The position numbers were made by a program, and so were the translations under genes. A stretch of 42,401 bases of DNA from Desulfurellaceae bacterium (GTDB lineage: Bacteria; Campylobacterota_A; Desulfurellia; Desulfurellales; Hippeaceae). Location: positions 1 to 42,401 of the forward strand of contig WGCD01000110.1 of assembly GCA_015493995.1 (NCBI GenBank), written 5' to 3'. The notes under the pieces were generated by a model, which saw nothing but the letters and a program-made list of their open reading frames with translations, did no database searches and was not told the origin of the DNA. This document shows positions 1-5,318 of the stretch, piece by piece (position 1 is the first letter of the stretch; the number at the start of each line of letters is the position of its first letter).

Positions 1-423
1 ATAATCCATTTGTCAGATTTAAGTTGCACTATTTCCGTTTCTGAAGGGAATTACGACTTATCTGTTCATTAAAAAACGTTACGGAGGATAAGATTTTGTT
101 GCACTATTTCCGTTTCTGAAGGGAATTACGACCCATTTCTCCACTTCTTCTGGATCTACATCTGGATCTACATCAGTTGCACTATTTCCGTTTCTGAAGG
201 GAATTACGACAAATCATCTAAATATTTCCCAAATGACCCTTCAAATTTATCCGGTTGCACTATTTCCGTTTCTGAAGGGAATTACGACAGGGCGGATCCC
301 CCAAATCCGCCTCTGGTTTTTTAACATGATTCGTTGCACTATTTCCGTTTCTGAAGGGAATTACGACAAAAACCTTTTTCAAACCTCATCTCACACCTCC
401 ATTTTGTTGCACTATTTCCGTTT
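1..423 (+). CRISPR. CRISPR array, right-hand (probably trailer) end
   Basis: Five identical 35-bp repeats lie at 23-57, 98-132, 176-210, 254-288 and 333-367. Each begins GTTGCACTATTTCCG and ends GGGAATTACGAC. A sixth begins at 406 but only its first 18 bases continue. Spacers are 58-97 (40 bp), 133-175 (43), 211-253 (43), 289-332 (44) and 368-405 (38). Bases 1-22 are the end of another spacer, so the array continues off the left edge. The repeat can fold weakly by pairing ATTTCC with GGGAAT. Repeat degeneration on the right suggests that this is the leader-distal end, with leader and cas genes to the left; no cas gene is in the window. Strand is inferred from that polarity. The subtype cannot be told from the repeat alone. 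Confidence 0.95.
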
Positions 424-527
424 TTATCGAGCCGTTAGCTCTGTAAGAACAACACGTTCGATTTGCTCCGCCTTGTTTTTATTATTGAAAACTTAATGAA
501 ACGGCTTCGGTTGAAGGGAATTACCAA
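406..527 (+). repeat. CRISPR repeat 6, split by an 87-bp hairpin insert
   Basis: The first 18 bases of the CRISPR repeat (406-423) are perfect. Sequence then departs until 511-527, where the remaining 17 bases of the repeat reappear with 14 of 17 matches (core TGAAGGGAATTAC at 512-524). The intervening 424-510 holds an inverted repeat near its ends: AGCCGTT at 430-436 and AACGGCT at 500-506, in the wider frame TCGAGCC...GGCTTCGG. This looks like a small MITE-like or hairpin element inserted into one repeat. The split is seen directly; insertion as the cause is inferred. Confidence 0.7.
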
Positions 528-575
528 GCCTTTTACAAGTAAGATATACTTCGTAAGATAAAAGGCTTAAACAGG
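528..575. repeat. Spacer-sized segment with a 10-bp hairpin
   Basis: This 48-bp stretch between two split repeats is only slightly longer than the true spacers. It contains AAGCCTTTTA (526-535, its first bases overlapping the preceding repeat half) and the exact inverse TAAAAGGCTT (559-568). It may be an old spacer, a remnant of another hairpin element, or both. Confidence 0.45.
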
Positions 576-665
576 CTATCCTTTTTTCCTTTTCGGTTCG
601 AGCCATATTAAGTCTTCTTTGAATTTCTTTTTTAGAGCAATATGGCTTGGGAATGGAATTACGAG
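576..665 (+). repeat. Degenerate CRISPR repeat 7, apparently split at the same site
   Basis: Bases 649-665 match the last 17 bases of the CRISPR repeat at 13 positions (GGAATTACGA at 655-664 is exact). Bases 585-593 match repeat positions 10-18 at 8 of 9 (TTTCCTTTT against TTTCCGTTT); the nine bases before that are poorly conserved. Between the halves (594-648) is another hairpin, AGCCATATT 601-609 with AATATGGCT 639-647, in a frame TTCGAGCC...GGCTTGG very like the insert in repeat 6. The 3' half is convincing; the 5' half is weak. Confidence 0.5.
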
Positions 666-914
666 AATAAATTATAAATTTTAGATTTTAGATGTTGGAT
701 TAAAGGCAATTAAGCGGCTTTATTGTAAAGGGATGAAACAATTTAAAATCCATAATTCAAAATCCAAAATCCAGAATCCGAAAGAGAGTTTCTGTCCGAT
801 TTTTCTTTGAAACTGATAAATTCAATTCCGCTTTTTTATCAAACCGTATTAAGTATTCTTCGGTTCTTTCTTTATGAGAACAAGACACAAGAAAATAATT
901 GAAAGATTTGCGTT
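666..914. other. Non-coding, repeat-rich remnant sequence
   Basis: No gene is visible. An imperfect inverted repeat (679-701 against 747-769, 18 of 23 paired) is built from degenerate AAATCC units. Bases 702-715 (AAAGGCAATTAAGC) faintly resemble the end of the CRISPR repeat. TATTAAGT plus following bases at 847-861 repeats the loop of the hairpin at 606-620. A small AACCG/CGGTT hairpin lies around 842-865. Confidence 0.5.
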
Positions 915-1230
915 ATGGGGATTACTTGTGGCACATTCCTGAATTATATAGTTGGAGAACTAATAACTAATGCCGTTGACCATTTGGATAGCATCAGCGA
1001 AACCGTATGCACCGGGCAGCTTTTTTCGTTTGGCAATTATAGCGAAATAGTCGTGATAGATGCCGGTGTGGGTTTTTAAAAATAATCTCAGGAAAAGGTG
1101 CCTTAACCCAATTGGAGATAAAATATATAAAGACTGCAGAAAAAACAAAATCTTGAACGGCAGCATAGTAATAGTAAGGCTTTACCATAAAAACTTTTCT
1201 ATCCTTAGCTTGGAAGAATTTCTAAAATAA
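915..1230 (+). pseudogene. Frameshifted C-terminal remnant of a GHKL/HATPase-type ATP-binding protein
   Basis: From ATG 915 the reading frame gives 54 residues and ends at TAA 1077-1079. It contains GELITNAVDH, which fits the N-box of GHKL ATPases, and VVIDAGVGF, which fits the G1 box (DxGxG). Dropping one T in the run at 1073-1077 restores a frame that continues for 50 codons (FKNNLRKR... to EEFLK) and stops at 1228-1230. The two pieces together look like the last ~105 residues of a histidine-kinase-like or anti-sigma-like ATPase whose N-terminal part is missing. A sequencing error in the homopolymer could mimic the frameshift, but the missing N-terminus and the absence of a ribosome-binding site argue for decay. 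A 20-codon frame starting at 1231 immediately after it may be debris of a neighbour. Confidence 0.6.
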
Positions 1231-1427
1231 ATGAGGAGTGAGGATAAAGAAAAGGATATTTTCCAGGCTTTTAATTTTTTGAGAGGCACCTGATTTCAAC
1301 GTATTTTTTGTTTTTTATCCTTTTAAAGAGAGAACTGCTTGCTGTTACTTGAGCCATACATTTTTATTTAACTTTAAAAACGTCACAAATGCTCATTACG
1401 CAAACATACATTCAAACTAAATAATCC
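1231..1427. other. Intergenic region upstream of icd
   Basis: AT-rich sequence with no convincing gene. Only a 20-codon open frame (1231-1293) directly follows the pseudogene stop. Confidence 0.5.
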
Positions 1428-1456
1428 TTGACATACAAGGCTATTTTATATATACC
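1428..1456 (+). promoter_or_regulatory. Sigma-70 promoter of icd
   Basis: Perfect -35 TTGACA at 1428-1433, then 17 bp to TATACC at 1451-1456 (TATATA at 1449-1454 overlaps it with 15 bp spacing). It would give a leader of about 130 nt before the icd start at 1595. A small AGTTC/GAACT hairpin at 1493-1509 lies in that leader. Confidence 0.65.
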
Positions 1457-1594
1457 TGCTCAAGGAATATATGTTTAAAGGATTTAGGAATTAGTTCTTA
1501 ATGTGAACTTAAAAAGTTAATTGTAGGTTGGCGAAATAGAACAATGCAGGAAATTTTGCCAGCAAAAATAAAATTTTTTATTGAGAGGTGTTGT

Positions 1595-3835
1595 ATGGAT
1601 AAATTTGCTAAAATTGTTTGGACAAAGACAGACGAAGCACCGATGCTTGCCACGCACTCTTTGCTTCCGGTTGTAAAATCTTTCTTAAAACACGGAGATA
1701 TAGAGATTGAAACAAAGGATATTTCGCTTGCCGGAAGGATTTTGGCTCTGTTTCCGGAAAGATTGAAAGAAGAAGAGAGAGTGCCGGATGATTTGGCTTA
1801 TCTCGGAGAGCTTGTTAATAAGCCCGAGGCAAATATAATTAAACTGCCCAACATCAGCGCTTCTGTTCCTCAGCTACAGGCAGCGATTAAAGAGCTTCAA
1901 GAGAAGGGATATGACATTCCAGATTACCCTGAAAATCCTCAAACGGAAGAAGAAAAAGCCTTAAAAGAAAAATACTCGAAAGTTTTGGGAAGTGCTGTTA
2001 ATCCGGTATTAAGACAGGGAAATGCAGACAGAAGAGCTCCGGCAGCCGTTAAAAAAATTGCAAAAAAATATCCGACATCTATGGGACTGCCTCTAAAACC
2101 GTGGAACCCGGACTCAAAAACAAGGGTTTCTCATATGACGGCAAATGATTTTTACGGCAACGAGCAGTCTGTTATAATGGACAAAGAAACCGACGTTAAG
2201 TTTGAGTTTGTTGATAAAAACGGCAATATAACAGTATTAAAAGAGAAACTGCATCTATTGAAGGATGAGGTGTTCGATACAACATTTATGAGCGTAAAGG
2301 CTTTAAGAAATTTTTTTGAAGAGCAGATTGAGGAGACCAAAAAAGATGACGATGTTTTGCTGTCTCTTCACTTAAAGGCAACGATGATGAAGGTTTCCGA
2401 CCCGCCAATATTCGGACACGCCGTCAGGGTTTATTTTAAAGATGTTTTTGATAAATACGGAGATTTGTTCGACGAAATAGGTGTTAATACCAACAACGGT
2501 TTGAGTGATGTCTATGCCAAAATAAAAAAGCTGCCTGAGGATAAGCAGAAGGAGATTAAAGACGCAATCAACGCCGTGTATGAAAAAAATCCTAAACTCG
2601 CTATGGTTAACTCCGCTAAGGGAATAACAAACTTGCATATGCCAAACGACATTATTATAGATGCATCAATGCCTGTTGTCATAAGGGACGGAGGTAAGAT
2701 GTGGGGTCCTGACAACGAACTTCACGATACAAATGCTATGATTCCTGATAGATGTTATTCGACTATGTATCAGGTGGTTATAGAAGACTGCAAAATAAAC
2801 GGCGCTTTCGACCGCTCAACTATGGGCAGCGTATCAAACGTAGGACTTATGGCTATGAAAGCCGAAGAGTACGGCTCTCACGATAAGACATTTTTAGCTC
2901 CCGATGACGGAACCATAAGGGTTGTGGATGCTGACGGTAACGTTTTGATGGAACACAATGTTGAAAAAGGCGACATATGGAGAGGTACTCAGGCAAAAGA
3001 TATTGCTATCAAAGATTGGGTTAAGCTTGCTGTCAACAGAGCAAGAGCAACCGGAGACCCCGCTGTATTCTGGTTGGATAAAAACAGGGCTCACGATGCA
3101 AATGTGATTAAAAAGGTTGAAAAATATCTGAAAGAGTTCGATACGGAAGGATTGGAATTTCACATAATGGCGCCTCCTGAGGCTATGAAGTTTTCTATTG
3201 ACAGAATCAGGAAAGGACTGGATACGATATCGGTTTCTGGAAATGCAATCAGGGATTATTTAACTGATTTGTTCCCGATTATGGAGATTGGAACAAGTGC
3301 CAAAATGTTGTCAATTGTTCCTCTTTTAGCCGGCGGCGGACTCTTCGAGACAGGTGCAGGCGGTTCAGCTCCGAAGCATATTCAACAGCTTTTGGAAGAA
3401 GGTCATTTAAGGTGGGATTCTCTGGGCGAATTTACGGCTCTTTGGGCATCTTTGGAGCACATTTACTCCAAAAATGGCAATAAAAAAGTTAAGGTTTTTG
3501 CAGATGCTTTGGATAAAGCCGTAGAGGAGCTTTTGGAAAACAGAAAGTGGCCATCAAGAAAGGTCGGAGAGTTGGATAACAGGGGAAGCCATTTCTATCT
3601 TGCTATGTATTGGGCAAAAGCCTTGGCAAATCAGAATGAGGATAAAGAGATTAAAGATATGTTTGCGGATGTTGCCAAAAAACTTGAAGAAAACGAGGAT
3701 AAAATAAACAAAGAGTTGCTTGCTACACAGGGTTCACCTGTTGATATAGGCGGATATTACAAACCTGATGAGGATAAAACAACAAAGGCTATGAGAGCAA
3801 GCGGGACATTTAACGAAATAATCGATTCTTTGTAA
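1595..3835 (+). CDS. icd: Isocitrate dehydrogenase (NADP+), monomeric type
   Basis: Oxidative decarboxylation of isocitrate to 2-oxoglutarate in the cytoplasm, feeding the KorDABC enzyme encoded next. The 746-residue length fits the monomeric IDH family (about 740), which is unrelated in fold layout to the usual dimeric 400-residue enzyme. Family signatures include EYGSHDKTF around residue 430 and [12 protein letters not shown] around residue 590. The ATG at 1595 is preferred over the in-frame ATG at 1544, because GAGAGGTG (1583-1590) sits at ribosome-binding distance and [16 protein letters not shown] is the normal family N-terminus. It has its own promoter. A weak hairpin separates it from korD, so co-transcription with the kor genes is possible. 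Confidence 0.95.
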
Positions 3836-3850
3836 AATGTTGATAAACGG

Positions 3851-3869
3851 GGGGCTTTTTTAAAGCCCC
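3851..3869 (+). terminator. Short hairpin after icd, possible terminator or attenuator
   Basis: GGGGCTTT (3851-3858) pairs exactly with AAAGCCCC (3862-3869) across a 3-nt loop. Only AAATTTTA follows rather than a clean T-run, so termination may be partial and the kor genes may receive read-through. Confidence 0.5.
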
Positions 3870-3896
3870 TAAATTTTATGTAAAAGGAGTAGGTAT

Positions 3897-4169
3897 ATGG
3901 CAGTTGAACAAGCTCCGGTTGTAGTAAACGAGGATTTGTGTACAGCCTGCGGCATATGTATAAAGGTATGCCCGAAAAATGTTTTGGAATTGGTTGAGGC
4001 TTTGCATGTGTGGACGGGCTCTATGTGTAAAGTCCAAAGGCCAGAGGATTGTATCAGGTGTAAGCTGTGTGAAGTTGCATGCCCTCATTTTGCTATTGAT
4101 GTAGTGGATGTAGGCGTAGAATTAACCTTTACGGATAGTAAAGGTAATCAAGTTACAAAGTCTAAATAG
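3897..4169 (+). CDS. korD: 2-oxoglutarate:ferredoxin oxidoreductase, ferredoxin-like delta subunit
   Basis: A 90-residue polyferredoxin carrying two 4Fe-4S motifs: CTACGICIKVCP near residues 15-26 and CIRCKLCEVACP near residues 45-56. It would pass electrons from the KorAB catalytic core to ferredoxin. The start follows AAAAGGAG. korA begins 9 bp after its stop. The order delta-alpha-beta-gamma is common for KOR enzymes. The substrate (2-oxoglutarate rather than another 2-oxoacid) is inferred from the subunit sequences and the adjacent icd. Confidence 0.9.
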   Translation: MAVEQAPVVVNEDLCTACGICIKVCPKNVLELVEALHVWTGSMCKVQRPEDCIRCKLCEVACPHFAIDVVDVGVELTFTDSKGNQVTKSK

Positions 4170-4178
4170 GAGGGATTG

Positions 4179-5318
4179 ATGTCTAAAGCTCAAATAATGA
4201 ATGGAAACGAGTTGGTTAGCGAAGCTGCTATAGCTGCAGGATGCAGATTTTACGCAGGCTACCCTATAACGCCGTCTTCCGAAATCCCGGAGCATTTATC
4301 AAAAAGAATGCCCGAGGTAGGCGGAGTCTTTGTGCAGTTTGAAGACGAGATAGCTTCGTGTATGGCTGCTGTCGGAGCAAGCTATGCCGGATATAAGTCT
4401 ATGACTGCTTCAAGCGGACCGGGAATTTCCCTGAAACAGGAAGCCATAGGATTGGCTTGTATGATGGAGTTGCCCTTAGTTGTTGTTAACGTTATGAGGG
4501 GCGGTCCTTCTACAGGTTTGCCGACAAGGGTATCACAGGCAGATTTGATGCAGGCAAGGTGGGGAACGCACGGAGACCATATGATTATAGCCGTTGCACC
4601 CGAAACACTGCTTGAAACATATACCGAGACAATCAGGGCGTTTAATATGGCGGAGAAATACAGAACACCGGTTTATATTCTAACAGATGCGGTTTTGGCT
4701 CACTTAAACGGTAGAGTTGAGCTTCCCGACCCGTCAACACTTGAAATTATAGACAGAACTCAGCCGAGCGTTCCGCCTGAGGAGTACAATCCTTACGATG
4801 TGGAAAGATTCGGAGAGGTTCCGCCTTTGCCGAACAAAGAGAATTTTCACGACTACAGATTCCATATGACGGGATTAAATAAGGATAAAACAGGTTTTCC
4901 GACGGTTAACAAAGAAGCCGTTGAAGCTGACGAAGAAAGAATGATTACAAAGATTACAGGCAACATAAAAGACATCGAGAGTTTTGAATATTACAAGATG
5001 GACGATGCACAGCTTGTAATATTTGCATACGGAACAAATGCAGCAGCCGCGAGGGTTGCGGTTGACGAAGCAAGAGAGGCTGGAATTAAAGCCGGTATGT
5101 TCAGACCTATAACGGTTTGGCCCTTCCCTGAAAAGCAGGTAGCCGAAATTGGAAAGAATTTTGATAAGATGATAGTAAGCGAAATCAACTTAGGTCAGAT
5201 GCTTTATGAGGTTGAGAGAGCAACTAAGGGCAATATTGAGATTTCAACCGTACTTCAGGCAGCCGGTGTTCCGATTAGACCTCAGCAGATATTAGACAAA
5301 ATGAAGGAGGTACTGTAA
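4179..5318 (+). CDS. korA: 2-oxoglutarate:ferredoxin oxidoreductase, alpha subunit
   Basis: Catalytic alpha subunit of the CoA-acylating 2-oxoacid:ferredoxin oxidoreductase that interconverts 2-oxoglutarate and succinyl-CoA. 379 residues, with the conserved AGYPITPSSE pyrimidine-binding-domain motif near residue 25, FEDEIA near residue 53 and SSGPGISL near residue 75. ATG 4179 is chosen over the in-frame TTG at 4176 because GGAGG (4169-4173) then has normal spacing. The gamma domain is not fused, since korC is a separate gene. It overlaps korB by one base (TAATG). Confidence 0.92.
   Translation: MSKAQIMNGNELVSEAAIAAGCRFYAGYPITPSSEIPEHLSKRMPEVGGVFVQFEDEIASCMAAVGASYAGYKSMTASSGPGISLKQEAIGLACMMELPLVVVNVMRGGPSTGLPTRVSQADLMQARWGTHGDHMIIAVAPETLLETYTETIRAFNMAEKYRTPVYILTDAVLAHLNGRVELPDPSTLEIIDRTQPSVPPEEYNPYDVERFGEVPPLPNKENFHDYRFHMTGLNKDKTGFPTVNKEAVEADEERMITKITGNIKDIESFEYYKMDDAQLVIFAYGTNAAAARVAVDEAREAGIKAGMFRPITVWPFPEKQVAEIGKNFDKMIVSEINLGQMLYEVERATKGNIEISTVLQAAGVPIRPQQILDKMKEVL

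Follow-up and report, generated by a model that had tools for sequence, protein, structure and literature searches.

CRISPR loci have been called relatively intractable to transposition; a review of Sulfolobales and other archaea records one insertion sequence and one 132-bp MITE in euryarchaeal loci (PMC4390879). Split repeats are unusual because CRISPR arrays are normally almost without such elements. Elsewhere, mobile DNA that chooses a short palindrome as its target is known: the insertion sequences IS1397, ISKpn1, IS621 and others target REP/PU palindromes (PMC1525189). The inserts that we describe here would resemble them in this respect. However, those insertion sequences are autonomous, carry a transposase and enter dispersed REPs, whereas the present inserts are non-coding, 50-110 bp long, and have a CRISPR repeat as their target.

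MITEs are likewise short and non-coding, with terminal inverted repeats. Unlike MITEs, the inserts were found without target duplications or a partner, and several families occupy one exact intra-repeat point in several genera. REP/BIME sequences with RAYT (TnpA_REP) also form mosaic chains of palindromes joined by linkers (PMC2817692, PMC8266576), but the inserts are low-copy and array-restricted, and two of the genomes that carry them, G001 and G010, have no Y1 transposase. The mobile hairpins of mitochondria (double-hairpin elements, RHE; PMC2800124) are short tandem hairpins, seen as invasive, whose stems are conserved; ours lie in a bacterial chromosome, target a CRISPR repeat and, in the case of insert A, conserve the loop too. 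Degenerate leader-distal repeats mark the end of an array where repeats normally decay, and the inserts lie at that end, but decay by point mutation adds no conserved 87-bp hairpins at one site. In the open-access literature, we found no account of hairpins that recur at the dyad centre of CRISPR repeats, and the pattern seems new.

Two split repeats at the distal end of an array

The window, meaning the whole stretch of 42,401 nucleotides analysed, is the left end of contig C110 in the 1.79-Mb genome of an uncultured Desulfurellales bacterium, G000. Another contig, C141, ends in 12 more exact repeats and one truncated by the contig end, and C110 starts inside C141's last spacer and repeat. 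Hence, the two contigs form a single array. Its leader sits on C141, so the split repeats lie at the leader-distal, old end. The locus has regular direct repeats, unique spacers and a leader, with cas genes in the same genome: csm1-csm5, csx20 and a gene for a Card1-like CARF nuclease lie on C141, about 10 kb from the leader, and this type III-A (Csm) system probably serves the array. The cas1 gene of G000 is on C94 beside a different repeat type; there (L172) it adjoins a leader with one diverged repeat of that other type (GTTGAATTAATCCCGCTAACGAAGGGAATTACTAC). A lone repeat of the array folds into a weak stem (ATTTCC/GGGAAT) whose tip is positions 15-23.

Table 1. Features of the array end in the window
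Feature	Position	Strand	Remarks
Five intact 35-nt CRISPR repeats (GTTGCACTATTTCCGTTTCTGAAGGGAATTACGAC) with ordinary spacers	23..367 (starts 23, 98, 176, 254, 333)	+	
Split repeat 6, 5' half	406..424	+	First 18 bases kept at 406-423
Insert A, 87 bp (TATCGAGCCGTT...AACGGCTTCGGT), at repeat-palindrome apex	425..511	+	Homologues in G001, G003, G009, G014
Split repeat 6, 3' half (TGAAGGGAATTA, degenerate beyond)	512..523	+	
Hairpin C, in spacer position (CCAAGCCTTTTAC...ATAAAAGGCTT)	524..568	+	G001 copies read TATCAAGCC...GGCTCGATA
Split repeat 7, degenerate 5' half (TTTTTTCCTTTTC)	582..594	+	G001 version TTTTTTCCGTTTT
Insert B, ~57 bp (GGTTCGAGCCATATT...AATATGGCTTGGG), at repeat apex	595..651	+	Copies in G001: C38 (two), C70 (one)
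Split repeat 7, 3' half (AATGGAATTACGAG)	652..665	+	
F', AT-rich imperfect palindromic block at array end	664..827	+	Common to G001:C70

The last two repeats of the window are split at the apex of their own palindrome by inserts A and B (Table 1). The initial annotation had described both splits from the letters of the window. For repeat 6 it proved right: the repeat restarts at 511/512 with 14/17 matches, and we refined the insert boundary to 425-511, using the repeat of the congener G001 as reference, as we did for B (595-651). Repeat 7 restarts at 649-665 (13/17 matches) after a weak 5' remnant at 585-593. Could this second split be a chance resemblance? The 5' half had been called weak, and taken alone it is, since a 9-mer with at least 8/9 matches arises in 9% of dinucleotide shuffles of 528-700. 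A 3' half with at least 13/17 matches arises in 0.2% of them, and both halves, in order and 30-80 bp apart, in 0/5000. The G001 homologue, which reads TTTTTTCCGTTTT-B-AAGGGAATTACG, has an undamaged 5' half and confirms the identity of the remnant. An ordinary decayed trailer with accidental hairpins, or an assembly artefact, is suggested by that weak half and by MAG contigs that end within the array. Yet independently assembled genomes, one of them in a single contig (G009), have the same inserts in the same places, and those of G000 and G001 are 92-97% identical. These independent copies refute a chance or artefactual origin, to which we give almost no credence.

Between the two split repeats, the initial annotation had seen a 48-bp segment of spacer size. 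It is not an ordinary spacer: it corresponds to hairpin C (524-568), which is repeated in G001. When G000 and G001 sequences are folded, the half-repeats stay paired outside the insert stem. The arms of A, B, C, of a fourth hairpin D from G001 and of the other hairpins examined score above shuffled sequences (P 0.018 to 0.001; 0.018 for the arm alignment of A). For A, a bulge limits a simple outer-stem score to P = 0.1. The inserts have terminal inverted repeats, and their size leaves no room for a transposase gene. Different cores share ends: TATCRAGCC...GGCTYGATA bounds A, B, C and one hairpin of G010, and TCCnGCAC ends are common to hairpins of G001, G003 and G010. No target-site duplication was seen at A, B, C or D, and positions 1-5000 of the window gave no Rfam match up to E = 1.

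Copies and occupied sites in related genomes

The initial annotation had proposed a search of the genome for further insert copies. There are none elsewhere in G000, and the relatives supply them, among them JALVUQ01 and JAMOPP01, which carry the same inserts. The congener G001 has several copies of A, B and C, placed as in G000, together with D (TCCTGCACCATT...AATGGTGCAGGA), which is in spacer position. Writing R[x] for a repeat split by x and F' for the AT-rich palindromic block, its array runs from the leader through three whole repeats to R[A] D R[A] C R[B] D R[A] C F' R[A] C R[B]; contigs C16 and C38, whose ends overlap, were treated as one array. AT-rich palindromes also occur at other trailers. 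At L175 (G015) and L132 (G006), shortened repeats (GTTGCTCCCGCTTCTGAAGGGAA) alternate with AT-rich AATCCAAAATCC palindromes of ~150 bp.

Among 46 genomes searched with a covariance model, A occurs only in G000, G001, G003, G009 and G014 (E 5e-33 to 2e-6). It always adjoins repeat halves and has the same orientation relative to the repeat (5/5). The CRISPR-type repeats that contain it belong to three genera, and in one of the genomes no cas1 was detected. Neither A nor the G010 hairpins had a copy outside a CRISPR-type context. We counted 14 split repeats in G000, G001, G003, G009, G010 and G014 (one G001 copy, at the contig overlap, perhaps twice), and every one of them breaks near the apex or dyad. 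Split repeats were absent from the sampled intact-repeat arrays of G004, G006, G011, G013 and G016.

G009, of 1,694,430 bp, we take to be Hippea maritima. In it, A lies between the halves of a diverged CRISPR-type repeat, a second split repeat follows, and there are no intact repeats. A search for cas1 in G009 found none. The H. maritima genome paper lists 0 CRISPR repeats (PMC3156395).

The relatives also yielded several observations on cas1 and on single repeats. G006 has cas1 loci at C1:481570-482271 and 1159475-1160233, and a further one lies at G011:C132; one G006 cas1 has an internal TAG, and the open frames that contain the others, 704 and 870 aa long, may be fusions. At L136 and L138 (G016, G017) and L129 (G010), CRISPR leaders with a single repeat are found upstream of genes with similar N-termini (LDPGG motif), which possibly encode a metallo-beta-lactamase-fold protein. 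In G016 and G017, a spacer-like unit, GGGCGTYTT...GCAAGCTAG, recurs 3' of the repeat.

One G001 array contains four identical copies of A. This would fit an origin without any transposition, in which stem-loops of repeat halves provoke template switching during replication and so create new, perfect palindromes at the apex, which then spread to other repeats and arrays through homologous recombination or gene conversion, as well as through the horizontal exchange of arrays. Such an origin also accommodates arms that differ among hairpins with their pairing retained, the missing target duplications, and half-repeats that match each host's own repeat type. However, template switching does not predict the common ends (TATCRAGCC; TCCnGCAC) on cores with unrelated loops, nor the keeping of A's 87-bp length and loop sequence across genera. 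We consider it possible but doubtful.

Perhaps the inserts are instead a selected structure, an extended leader-distal hairpin that terminates, stabilises or insulates the transcript or blocks recombination? The divergence of A bears on this. Identity is 83/87 (4 differences) between G000 and G001 and 74/88 (84%) between G000 and G009, while the corresponding values for fourfold sites of the isocitrate dehydrogenase gene in the window are 67% and 38%. Had a neutral insert been inherited from before the genera separated, it would by now have approached saturation, so A is either constrained or was exchanged more recently. DNA near A is also 87-88% identical between G000 and G001, so only the intergeneric comparison is strong. 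On these sequence comparisons, we conclude that A is not a neutral vertical relic but has been either constrained or moved. Selection would agree with conservation far above fourfold sites, with a length constant in three genomes, with a TATC-to-TACC change in G009 that converts an outer-stem G-U to a G-C pair, with the leader-distal position of the inserts in G000, and with the presence of an A-like insert (A') in the last repeat of G014. Against it, the inserts are absent from most of the relatives' arrays that were sampled, the inner fold varies among copies, Rfam offers no match, A persists in G009 with neither cas1 nor intact repeats, and four tandem copies are not expected of a functional terminator. 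We think selected structure quite improbable as the explanation.

The initial annotation had also called for a comparison with empty sites, and this yielded one orthologous pair. G014:C104 (filled) and G015:C163 (empty) represent one locus, immediately ahead of a tRNA-Ser-like gene, with alignable flanks. G015 reads GTTGCTCCCGCTTC^TGAAGGGAA, and G014 reads TTGTTCCCTCTTTT, the A-like insert of ~88 bp, then TGAAGGGAA, with no visible target duplication. The difference came about by exact insertion or by exact loss.

One B of G001, on C70, stands outside an array. The sequence to its right and an isocitrate dehydrogenase gene 3 kb on match the window. We rejected this solo copy as proof of transposition, as it marks the orthologous array end at the isocitrate dehydrogenase locus; most simply, it would be the end unit of a lost array and not the product of a jump. 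The suggestion that an element or hairpin family prefers the middle of the repeat is thus upheld in part. Apex copies in four other genomes, the filled and empty pair and the parallel in G010 speak for it; the host genome has no further copies, and the only one outside an array is this array remnant. Recombination between arrays, instead of true transposition, may have spread the inserts.

A parallel case with another repeat

G010 has a different repeat (GTTGCACTATTCCCGCTCCTGAAGGGAATTACGAC), and at two loci another hairpin (CTGTCTGACTATCATG...TTGATGGTCAGAC) interrupts it after position 16. Related hairpins occur in spacer and leader positions. Those with the ends TCCGAGCCCC and TCCGACCACC stand behind repeats, in spacer position. 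Leader stretches that keep their ordinary sequence in locus C1 are replaced elsewhere by hairpins with arms CCAGCACTTACTT. The second leader hairpin (107 bp) is found in both orientations, one at L126 and L129 and the other at L127 and L128, and the two are identical at 106/107 positions when inverted, as by recombination between the arms or by insertion in either orientation. About eight dispersed loci (L124-L130, L177, L178), beside unrelated genes, carry a leader or hairpin chain. BLAST with the whole chain found nothing beyond them, and no cas1 was detected in G010.

By eye, one of these loci adjoins a CARF-like gene, and several G010 contigs end within leader hairpin chains. At L126:1817-1926 (also L127, L129, L177 and L178), the stretch replaced by a leader hairpin holds a promoter-like TTGACA in locus C1; the loop of that hairpin contains TTGAGT-17-TATAAT.

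That hairpins in spacer and leader positions replace sequence and are not simply inserted counts against reading them as insertions, and is a further point for template switching.

Origin of the inserts

We considered what might have moved the inserts. A Y1 (HUH) transposase is present in G000, G003, G009 and G014, but G001 and G010, where inserts are most numerous, lack one. RAYT/Y1 was therefore rejected as the mover; its absence from G001 and G010 again fits template switching. As for an autonomous partner, the left 16 bases of A (at most 2 mismatches) occurred in five genomes only in copies of A and in one chance-level match. No copies of the inserts were found in viral, plasmid or phage collections. 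A lone viral contig that matches the repeat's first 18 bases was dismissed, as there is no array there. Exact-pattern matches to the junction of A and repeat in other phyla are about as numerous as chance predicts, and five that we inspected (Holophagaceae, Desulfosporosinus and others) had no hairpin or repeat.

Taking as the observations to be explained the position of the inserts, their palindromy, their recurrence across genera, the parallel in G010 and the one filled and empty pair, we give about an even chance to the following account: short palindromic MITE-like elements colonise CRISPR arrays at the apices of stems and were then multiplied by array recombination. The original step, as we infer it, would be the insertion of a mobile, MITE-like, non-coding hairpin at the leader-distal end of the array, presumably by a trans-acting enzyme that targets hairpin tips. 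A and B would enter at the dyad centre of the repeat; C and D would enter between two neighbouring repeats, flanked by the 3' half of the first and the 5' half of the second, and these halves also pair as a stem. Entry at the tip would leave the half-repeats paired and the hairpin longer. Recombination through repeat halves would then duplicate and shuffle the units, as in the tandem A-C-B-D arrangement of G001, while the array decays around them. The uniform orientation of A (5/5) argues against this colonisation by MITE-like elements, since a palindrome-targeting transposase need not produce it. The absence of target duplications, of an autonomous partner with A's left end, of Y1 from G001 and G010, and of copies of A or the G010 hairpins beyond CRISPR-type contexts likewise counts against it.

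A narrower possibility, which we regard as unlikely, is a family of small hairpins that home to the dyad of CRISPR repeats and pass from species to species via arrays, possibly moved by the array's integration or repair enzymes.

Since standard CRISPR finders would probably miss split repeats, other cases may have escaped notice. Hairpin inserts that recur at one exact site in the repeats of several genera would mean that the palindrome of the repeat can itself be targeted. They would offer a route to the decay or silencing of an array with its stems intact, and would be a natural system in which to study the growth and spread of palindromes in bacterial chromosomes.
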